From Actinomycetota bacterium (lineage in GTDB: Bacteria; Actinomycetota; Actinomycetes; Nanopelagicales; Nanopelagicaceae), in the NCBI GenBank assembly GCA_009703165.1, contig WLGP01000006.1:1-14330 (forward strand): a stretch of 14,330 nt of DNA. Direction: 5' to 3'. The notes under the pieces are model-generated. The model did not search any database and was not told the DNA's origin. It saw only the letters and a program-made list of their open reading frames with translations. Every line of letters starts with the position of its first letter. Position 1 is the stretch's first letter. Shown here piece after piece: positions 4,824-6,729 of this stretch. The translations under genes were made by a program, and so were the position numbers.

Positions 4824-5078
4824 TTACTTTGCAGCAGGATCGAGGTTTTCGATTGTAAGTAAACCTTCGTTAATTTCGCGAAGTGCAATCGATAATGGCT
4901 TCTCATGAACATGCGTCTCAACAAGAGGTCCAACGTATTCAAGGAGACCTTCGCCAAGTTGTGAGTAATAAGCGTTAATCTGACGTGCGCGCTTTGCAGC
5001 GTAGAGAACGAGGCTGTACTTAGAGCCGCTCTTATCTAGCAGTTCATCGATTGGTGGATTGGTAATTCCGTCCATCAT
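4824..5078 (-). CDS. rpoZ: DNA-directed RNA polymerase omega subunit
   Basis: Small subunit that helps fold and hold the beta' subunit in RNA polymerase. It is 84 residues, within the family's usual 80-110. The diagnostic block runs from [20 protein letters not shown] (7-26) into [12 protein letters not shown] (27-38). The C-terminal [10 protein letters not shown] (65-74) also matches the family. Two ATG codons lie in tandem at 5078-5073. AAGG sits 5 bases before the first and 8 before the second, so either may be used. It follows gmk, as in most bacteria, after a 53-base gap that is the largest between genes here. Confidence 0.95.
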
Positions 5079-5131: not shown

Positions 5132-6007
5132 CTACGAATGAGCCAATCTTATCAGGCTGGCGACCACGTGTTCGACCTGATCATTGACCAGGATATGGTC
5201 GAAAAAGGGCGACTGAGCCATCTCTTCTTGGGCTAGAGCAAGTCTTTCTGCACGCCGCTCAGGAGAATCAGTTGCCCGCCCCTCTAGGCGAGAGACCAGC
5301 TCTTCCCATGTAGGAGGTTCGAGAAAGACAAGAACGGCATCGGGCCAATTGGCCTTCACCTGCTTCGCGCCTTCAATATCAATCTCAAGGAGGACATCAC
5401 GACCATGCGAGAGAGCATCGAGAACTGGTTGACGTGGTGTTCCGTATCGAGCACCAGCAAAAGATGCCCACTCAAGGAAATGTCCATTAGATATCGCGCG
5501 ATCAAACTCTTCATCACTCATAAAGATGTAATCATGTCCATGTGATTCAGTATGTCGAGGCGAACGGGTTGTTGCAGATACGCTCACCCAGAAATCTTCA
5601 CGTTTGCGAATCTCTTGCGAGACGGTGCTCTTTCCTACTCCCCCTGGGCCGCTGAGAACTACCAGCCTGCCATCGTGGAGATCATGACGTGGAATAGCAA
5701 ACTCCTTGATGAGTGATTGTCGCTGATGAATTCCAAGACCCAAGAGTCGACGCGTATGAGAGATTGCAAGTCTATCTAAGATCGCAACAGCTCTCACTTT
5801 TCCCACACCGCTAATTGATTCAAGTAGCTCTGCAATTCGCATCTTAGATACCGCTTCGTCGTTCTCTGAAAGATCGAGTACCTCTTTGATCGTTAACTCA
5901 CCAGATCGAATCGCAGCTTTTACCTCTGCTCTCCGTGTACGGGAGCGCTTTGCTTTCTCAAGGGCTTGGGCCCTCTGCGCATCAGTGAGTACTGGCGGGC
6001 GATTCAT
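5132..6007 (-). CDS. gmk: Fusion of mIHF-type nucleoid protein with guanylate kinase
   Basis: A continuous 291-residue reading frame holding two proteins normally encoded by adjacent genes. Residues 1-104 match actinobacterial integration host factor (mIHF): LTDAQRAQALEKA near the start, a basic helix (17-31), SKMRIAELLESI (54-65) and the helix-turn-helix ISGVGKVRAVAILDRL (65-80) followed by THTRRLLGLG-like residues (84-92, HTRRLLGLG). Residues 114-291 are a complete guanylate kinase, which phosphorylates GMP to GDP: P-loop GPGGVGKST (120-128), GMP-binding SATTRSPR (144-151), FAGARYGTP (183-191), LEIDIEGAKQV (207-217) and lid GRATDSPERRAERL (243-256). Ordinary Gmk is about 185-210 residues. 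The ATG at 6007 is 20 bases after pyrF and lacks a clear Shine-Dalgarno; TAGATT lies 6 bases upstream. The joint carries a perfect AAGGAG, suggesting a once-separate gmk start. Domain identity is confident; the biological effect of the fusion is unknown. Confidence 0.92.
   Translation of the reverse strand: MNRPPVLTDAQRAQALEKAKRSRTRRAEVKAAIRSGELTIKEVLDLSENDEAVSKMRIAELLESISGVGKVRAVAILDRLAISHTRRLLGLGIHQRQSLIKEFAIPRHDLHDGRLVVLSGPGGVGKSTVSQEIRKREDFWVSVSATTRSPRHTESHGHDYIFMSDEEFDRAISNGHFLEWASFAGARYGTPRQPVLDALSHGRDVLLEIDIEGAKQVKANWPDAVLVFLEPPTWEELVSRLEGRATDSPERRAERLALAQEEMAQSPFFDHILVNDQVEHVVASLIRLAHS
5693..5707 (-). promoter_or_regulatory. Perfect Shine-Dalgarno and in-frame ATT at the mIHF/Gmk joint
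   Basis: Codons 101-102 of the fusion read AAG GAG (5707-5702), identical to the consensus ribosome binding site. Six bases later, in frame, comes ATT (codon 105, 5695-5693), just before the guanylate kinase domain. No in-frame ATG lies near the joint (Met56 and Met163 are the nearest). ATT is a rare start codon in bacteria. The site may be the relic of a separate gmk start, a weak internal start giving a Gmk of about 187 residues, or coincidence, because Lys-Glu codons readily give AAGGAG. Confidence 0.35.
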
Positions 6008-6013
6008 GGATGT

Positions 6014-6019
6014 AATCTA
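6014..6019 (-). promoter_or_regulatory. Possible -10 box for leaderless mIHF-gmk transcript
   Basis: TAGATT on the minus strand is followed by six bases and then the ATG at 6007, the same geometry as at def. The ATG has no recognisable ribosome binding site. No good -35 is seen 16-18 bases upstream, so the call rests on spacing and on the missing Shine-Dalgarno. Confidence 0.25.
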
Positions 6020-6027
6020 GACGAAAA

Positions 6028-6729
6028 CTATCCTTTAATGGAGTCGACGATCTGCGCAGCGCGAGATGCCATAGCCGCTGCTCCCTGACTCCATCTTGAA
6101 GTTATCGGACGGCCAATCACAAGATAGTTAGCACCGAGGGCTATAGCCTGCGCTGGTGTCATCGTTCGAACTTGATCGTCAGTGACTGATTCATCGGAGG
6201 GCCGAACCCCTGGAGTAATGATCTCAACCGTGGATGGGACAACCGCGCGTATGGCCTCAATTTCATAGGGTGAACAGACAATCGATGTGGCACCTGCATC
6301 GGTTGCTACTCGAGCCAAGTTGGTAGCGGTTTCAAGAGAGCCACTCGAGTATCCAAGCTGGTTGAGATCGTCATCAGAAAGTGATGTAAGAACTGTTACC
6401 GCAGTTATCGATGTCTGCGTTACCGCTTCAACTGCTGCCGCAACTATCGCTGCACCTCCTGTCGCATGAACCGTAAGGAATCGAGGATGCAGATGGTCGA
6501 CTACCCCGGCAGCCTTCTTCACGGTATTGGGGATGTCATGAAGCTTGAGGTCAAGGAAGATCGATGCGCCACTTTCCTTAGCGATCGCCTCAATTCCTTG
6601 GCTGCCAAATGTTAAGTAGAACTCGAGCCCTAACTTATAGATATCAATACTTTCGCGAGTTGCATCTATCCATGCACGCGCGGTGTCAAAATCTGATGTA
6701 TCTACGGCGAGAATAATTGGACTTGTCAT
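6028..6729 (-). CDS. pyrF: Orotidine 5'-phosphate decarboxylase, type 1
   Basis: Final step of UMP synthesis: decarboxylates OMP to UMP. It is 233 residues, a TIM barrel of normal length for the type 1 (E. coli/B. subtilis) subfamily. The catalytic set is visible: Lys32 in YKLGLE, then Asp60, Lys62 and Asp65 in LDLKLHDIPNTV. The phosphate-binding parts are TPGVRP (172-177) and IGRPIT (205-210). Well-known actinobacteria such as Mycobacterium and Streptomyces carry the longer type 2 enzyme of about 270-280 residues, so the subtype is notable. The start is ATG at 6729 with AAGGAAG seven bases before it, 20 bases after the pyrD stop. Confidence 0.96.
   Translation of the reverse strand: MTSPIILAVDTSDFDTARAWIDATRESIDIYKLGLEFYLTFGSQGIEAIAKESGASIFLDLKLHDIPNTVKKAAGVVDHLHPRFLTVHATGGAAIVAAAVEAVTQTSITAVTVLTSLSDDDLNQLGYSSGSLETATNLARVATDAGATSIVCSPYEIEAIRAVVPSTVEIITPGVRPSDESVTDDQVRTMTPAQAIALGANYLVIGRPITSRWSQGAAAMASRAAQIVDSIKG

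Follow-up and report, generated by a model that had tools for sequence, protein, structure and literature searches.

The nucleoid protein of actinobacteria described as mIHF (Rv1388) or sIHF (SCO1480), represented by the family model NF041260, is a free protein of about 105-107 amino acids, reported as essential and abundant in mycobacteria. The guanylate kinases (Gmk) of family TIGR03263, among them Rv1389 of Mycobacterium tuberculosis (structures 1s4q and 1znw), have only a short N-terminus. In the 14,330-nucleotide stretch of contig WLGP01000006.1 analyzed here (the window), both proteins are encoded by a single open reading frame (ORF) with the mIHF domain in front of the kinase. The N-terminal 103 residues match the whole mIHF/sIHF profile and share its fold, differing from the described proteins in being the front part of a 291-residue chain. 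The fusion is conserved and, as it recurs in at least three lineages of the class, real. Databases label the protein 'guanylate kinase', and our literature search, which lacked most subscription journals, found no description of an mIHF-Gmk fusion. The gene and its parts are as follows.

5132..6007, minus strand: fused gene mIHF-gmk, 291 amino acids in a single ORF, ATG at 6007-6005, stop at 5134-5132
5699..5995, minus strand: mIHF/sIHF domain, residues 5-103 (NF041260; PDB 4itq and 6tob by sequence)
5672..5698, minus strand: linker, residues 104-112, separating the two NCBIfam matches; predicted local distance difference test (pLDDT) score below 50 at residues 106-111
5144..5671, minus strand: guanylate kinase domain, residues 113-288 (TIGR03263)
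5627..5650, minus strand: P-loop GPGGVGKS, residues 120-127 (sequence; conserved columns)

Both domains score above the curated cut-offs of their models. The actino_IHF model NF041260 aligns to residues 5-103 with 114.7 bits (cut-off 60), covering profile positions 3-101 of 102, and TIGR03263 aligns to residues 113-288 with 208.3 bits (cut-off 160.45). Pfam concurs, placing H2TH_5 and Guanylate_kin in the same 291-residue protein. The initial annotation had described an in-frame fusion of two complete domains, and this holds together with its coordinates; the strand is corrected to minus, and the linker, given there as about 10 residues, measures 9 between the NCBIfam matches. No stop codon follows the mIHF domain, so the protein departs from the definition of actinobacterial IHF as a free small protein. 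Its length is no bar to membership in NF041260, since this model is of the type equivalog_domain, and the sIHF fold with its S13-like H2TH domain is present. Lists of similar folds were dominated by Gmk and matched the mIHF half through two rows only; the N-terminal 103 residues superpose on DNA-bound sIHF (6bek_D) with a root-mean-square deviation of 0.7 over 89 residues.

Conserved columns and alignment to solved Gmk structures indicate that the P-loop and the GMP-binding residues are intact. Among 34 aligned fused proteins, G120, P121, V124, G125 and K126 are invariant in the kinase half, and R86, R87, G90, G92 and Q95 are invariant or nearly so in the mIHF half. The mIHF half is basic (pI 10.6, net charge +7) and the kinase half acidic (pI 5.3). 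In the predicted structure, with a predicted template modelling (pTM) score of 0.64, the linker has low confidence and there is no sign of a fixed interface between the domains.

The initial annotation proposed a check for a second free mIHF or Gmk elsewhere in the genome. None was detected in the window's genome (968 kb, 153 contigs, 65% complete), where the full fused protein finds one place at E-values up to 10, or in the near-complete fused relatives examined. The IHF family model gave exactly one match above cut-off, with a few weaker ones below, in each of 11 fused genomes of the same genus, and the H2TH model gave one match in each of 12 fused genomes, all near-complete except G000. The near-complete relatives are good evidence for a single copy, of which the window's draft alone is no proof.

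A draft in 153 contigs could also have created the fusion by an error of assembly or annotation. This reading is refuted by relatives assembled in single contigs (for example G014, G015, G189, G280 and G125-G127), which carry the same uninterrupted ORF, and we give it practically no credence. In the same genus, 32 of 36 other genomes give one full-length, stop-free match and four give no match. A stop or frameshift in close relatives, which the initial annotation had named as evidence against a fusion, is absent from all same-genus genomes with a match and occurs only in other genera. A protein search found 6276 homologues; each of the 120 listed, headed by the window's own protein, has both Pfam domains.

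A search of the order covered 296 genomes, all of one family (f1) with 17 genera (g1 and others), of which 271 gave a match and 25 did not. The fused or split state was read for genomes among the matches listed. On this basis eleven genera are fused (g1, g25, g26, g27, g32, g33, g34, g35, g36, g39 and g40) and six are split (g28, g29, g30, g31, g37 and g38). Genomes whose match was divided over two contigs, mostly at their ends, were not scored as split (G064, G071 and G075 of g25, G138 of g32 and G175 of g34), and in G229 a second, partial match lies on a separate contig. In one of the sets read, all 68 genomes gave an open match, nearly full-length in 67 and shorter in G060.

Among the matches listed from 393 genomes of the class (at least 90% complete), stop-free full-length matches outside f1 occur only in family f35 and in genus g93 of family f33. 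A closer look at 74 genomes found the fusion in 21 of 22 f35 genomes, the remaining one being broken by contig ends. Of the f33 genomes, two were fused (both g93 genomes), ten split and seven had Gmk only, the latter also without an H2TH match. These seven genomes belong to genera g63 and g104 (for example locus L172 in G450 and L159 in G496), where gmk lies behind pyrF and no mIHF is detectable anywhere. Relatives of these genera do have mIHF, which makes them a candidate natural loss of the nucleoid protein.

Among named genomes, the best 80 loci retrieved with a query derived from f33.g93 and f35 comprised 35 fused and 45 split loci. The fused ones belonged to Microbacteriaceae (25, including Curtobacterium, Microbacterium, Leucobacter, Frigoribacterium and Cryobacterium), to Candidatus Nanopelagicales (3) and to other or doubtfully named actinobacteria (7); the split ones included Streptomyces, Rothia, Arthrobacter, Nocardia, Blastococcus and Corynebacterium. 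Because the fused named records are mostly Microbacteriaceae, f35 probably corresponds to this family. A record of Candidatus Planktophila has its nearest proteins in g1 (73.7%), and a Candidatus Nanopelagicus sp. protein is 80% identical to one of g32; these identities point to f1 as Nanopelagicaceae (freshwater acI), with g1 near Planktophila and g32 near Nanopelagicus. Two database labels look wrong: L216, labelled Bacillus sp. (UNVERIFIED_ORG), has an actinobacterial mIHF-gmk pair, and L183, labelled Streptomycetaceae, encodes a protein nearest to g1 (69%).

The initial annotation had treated the fusion as a property of one genome, a view that gives way to a lineage-wide character in at least three fused lineages, f1, f35 and f33.g93. 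It had also offered genome compaction as a neutral origin. As a sole cause, streamlining is weakened, because the fusion also occurs in a family with genomes of 2.8-4.3 Mb, and because six streamlined f1 genera are split.

Fused lineages always sit where split relatives keep mIHF and gmk adjacent, in agreement with the ancestral state of two adjacent genes assumed in the initial annotation. Split relatives keep the pair at short distance, frequently in the same reading frame, and three g31 loci read AAG GGA AGG TAG ATG across the junction. In more remote genera of the window's family, this junction contains a stop or a frame change. Among the matches listed from 296 genomes of the phylum, none outside f35 and the window was stop-free, and at least 41 genomes align both domains in frame across one to three stops.

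The number of events was examined with a tree of up to ten neighboring proteins, excluding mIHF and Gmk (80 rows; one locus was dropped as too short). At least five changes of state are required overall, and f35 is placed apart from the window's family. Within f1, the split genera g28-g30 and g37 are basal, and split g31 and g38 cluster with fused g36 beside the Nanopelagicus-like fused genera. A two-residue gap in mIHF common to g25, g26, g27, g31, g32, g33, g34, g36 and g38 agrees with this grouping. A single clade of all fused f1 rows, as a single fusion would give, is disfavored in the approximately unbiased test (p = 9.5e-5 with 26 rows; 0.036 with 24 rows, without g36), for which the groups were picked after the trees were seen and G150, whose branch is long and poorly filled, was excluded. 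Linker length is as in the window in 14 of 20 other fused f1 rows, which speaks against many fusions and agrees with one fusion that was later undone by fission in g31 and g38. Within f1, several fusions and fusion plus fission thus both account for the pattern, and we prefer neither. Between lineages, both the length and the sequence of the linker vary. A P-loop pattern used to read the junctions of individual loci missed 13 of 81 loci, mostly in f35 and distant families, where linkers were left unread, although six f35 proteins were printed separately.

We consider it most probable (about 0.74) that the gene encodes two independently working domains in one bifunctional chain. The chain would join an mIHF/sIHF-type DNA-binding domain at the N-terminus, by a short flexible linker, to a catalytically intact guanylate kinase at the C-terminus, and would supply the cell with both activities. 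The fused gene would have arisen at the old mIHF-gmk-rpoZ locus when two closely spaced genes of the same direction lost the stop that parted them. The mIHF half would bind and bend DNA as a monomer with the kinase carried as cargo, while the kinase half would make GDP, each domain probably working largely on its own. The fixed consequence would be a 1:1 dosage and co-localization of mIHF and Gmk. We infer the activity of both halves, their independent action and stop loss as the route.

Three considerations weigh against this reading. First, PMC3724605 and PMC6155035 report that mIHF ranks among the most abundant M. tuberculosis proteins. A 1:1 ratio with an enzyme is odd for so abundant a protein, unless the demand for mIHF fell or Gmk is overmade. 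Second, that the predicted chain would stay whole in the cell is read from the gene. Third, mIHF evolves faster than Gmk in fused groups, with mIHF/Gmk distance ratios of 1.60 and 1.65 versus 0.99 in the basal split genera. A relaxation of mIHF caused by fusion is unsupported, since split g31 is nearly as fast (1.46), and it does not appear to be tied to fusion.

The same rate difference would be expected if the mIHF half had lost DNA binding and were decaying as an N-terminal extension. H2TH_5 scores of 41-60 bits in fused g32, f35 and f33.g93, versus 109-118 in split basal genera, point the same way, as does the lack of detectable mIHF in all seven genomes of the two f33 genera. However, the window's domain stands far above its family cut-off and keeps its charge, and the arginine, glycine and glutamine positions listed above are retained across the fused proteins. 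Furthermore, all 16 genomes examined encode HU (PF00216), so that loss of mIHF should be tolerable, yet the domain is kept in all fused genomes examined. Degeneration is accordingly very improbable in our estimate.

Alternatively, the locus could give two products, the long chain plus free Gmk translated from a start inside the gene, close to where the mIHF part ends. We counted in-frame ATG, GTG or TTG codons near the linker with a Shine-Dalgarno match of at least 4 nt, in 174 distinct genes from 193 loci, against 1000 synonymous shuffles; as the genes are related, the counts are not independent events. The sister genera provide strong evidence: the site is found in 20/20 genes of g32 (shuffle mean 7.3) and in 25/29 of g34 (mean 12.3), each reached by 0/1000 shuffles. 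Genus g32 switches between TTG and ATG at neighboring codons and is never without one. Some sister genera (g32, g34) thus probably also make free Gmk, to judge from their gene sequences. The loci concerned (L120-L122 and L259-L288) have a conserved ribosome site and start inside the fused gene and are candidates for a gene within a gene.

The signal is weak elsewhere. It occurs in 15 of 69 genes of the window's group (mean 9.1, reached by 24/1000); at a match of at least 5 nt, the count is 6 of 69 (mean 1.2, reached by 1/1000), and a minority of this group may keep an internal start site. In g25 the site is found in 5/22 genes (mean 5.2), yet the Glu codon there is GAG in 22/22, versus 45% elsewhere in the gene. 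Microbacteriaceae have it in 2/24 (mean 1.5). In the window, the internal-start test found no canonical start codon with a ribosome site (score 0), and only the following element is seen.

5702..5707, minus strand: AAGGAG, Shine-Dalgarno-like, at codons K101-E102; 6 nt further on is ATT (5695-5693), with no ATG, GTG or TTG

Because AAGGAG precedes ATT and the score is 0, the long chain is most likely the window's only product, and a second product from this gene seems improbable.

A further possibility is that the joining itself was selected, by tethering Gmk to the nucleoid or by letting a nucleotide or (p)ppGpp bound to Gmk alter DNA binding by mIHF, or the reverse. The initial annotation had raised two links of this kind, a chromosome-bound nucleotide synthesis and a response of DNA binding to GMP/ATP. 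The recurrence in at least three lineages, the near-universality within the large family f35 and the attachment of a basic mIHF half to an acidic kinase half are consistent with this idea. In addition, PMC6783271 reports Gmk as a (p)ppGpp target in several phyla, through its lid and the C-terminal helix. Nevertheless, six genera of the window's family live without the fusion, a single stop separating neighboring in-frame genes can be lost repeatedly without any benefit, the linker is predicted to be disordered without a fixed interface, and its length and sequence differ among lineages. We regard selection for the joining as unlikely. A more elaborate version, slightly less likely still, is that several lineages separately made Gmk nucleoid-resident: mIHF would hold GDP supply at the chromosome, GMP/ATP or (p)ppGpp on the kinase would tune DNA bending, and free kinase from an internal start would buffer the pool in some sister genera.

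The surroundings of the gene are also conserved. A pyrF-type ORF lies 20 nt upstream and an rpoZ-type ORF downstream; coaBC-, metK-, priA- and def-type ORFs follow beyond rpoZ, and pyr/car-type genes lie upstream.

6014..6019, minus strand: candidate leaderless promoter with TAGATT as its -10 box, 6 nt ahead of the ATG (sequence)
6028..6729, minus strand: pyrF-type gene, upstream neighbor (ORF; relatives at the same place by BLAST)
4824..5078, minus strand: rpoZ-type gene, downstream neighbor (ORF; conserved neighbor)

Most of the 80 other loci compared have the same neighbors around mIHF and gmk, some without detectable pyrF, pyrD or def. Medians of the pyrF-mIHF spacing were left unused, the group label having also taken in rows of other families. 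The motif TAnnnT lies 5-8 nt before the mIHF start in 11/14 loci of the window's group, 4/7 of the basal split genera, 2/12 of the other fused group and 0/14 of g31/g38, with a background of about 3% at random positions. This pattern suggests a leaderless transcript beginning at the fused gene as a candidate. The motif is stronger before metK (window gene 3612-2425, minus strand), being present in 14/14 loci of the window's group and 9/9 basal split loci, which makes this another candidate leaderless promoter. The listed start of the PyrD ORF (7772-6750, minus strand) lies upstream, inside the PyrK gene, and the true start is probably further in.

In fused lineages, actinobacterial IHF seems to have no free form and to be present solely as the N-terminal half of a metabolic enzyme. 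This calls into question its image as an unattached architectural protein in high copy number. Relatives that are fused, separated by an in-frame stop, two-product or without mIHF offer natural experiments, and both culturable Microbacteriaceae and the freshwater acI bacteria, which are abundant, allow a direct test of whether guanine-nucleotide supply is linked to the nucleoid. Should the fusion prove neutral, it would nonetheless be a clear example of a conserved gene pair repeatedly losing its intervening stop.

Close counterparts of the window's protein are 'guanylate kinase' entries of Microbacteriaceae (for example of Leifsonia, Curtobacterium, Frondihabitans and Homoserinibacter), which have the same domain order, about 300 amino acids and the same locus. 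The f35 proteins are 43-47% identical to the window's and have a different linker, and the Microbacteriaceae-type Gmk (L148-L153) has the P-loop GPTAVGKG in place of GPxGVGKS. The MAGUK proteins of eukaryotes, present in the fold list, likewise hold the guanylate kinase fold within a multidomain protein. They lack an mIHF domain, and their guanylate kinase domain is a binding module, whereas the window's protein keeps its kinase residues.
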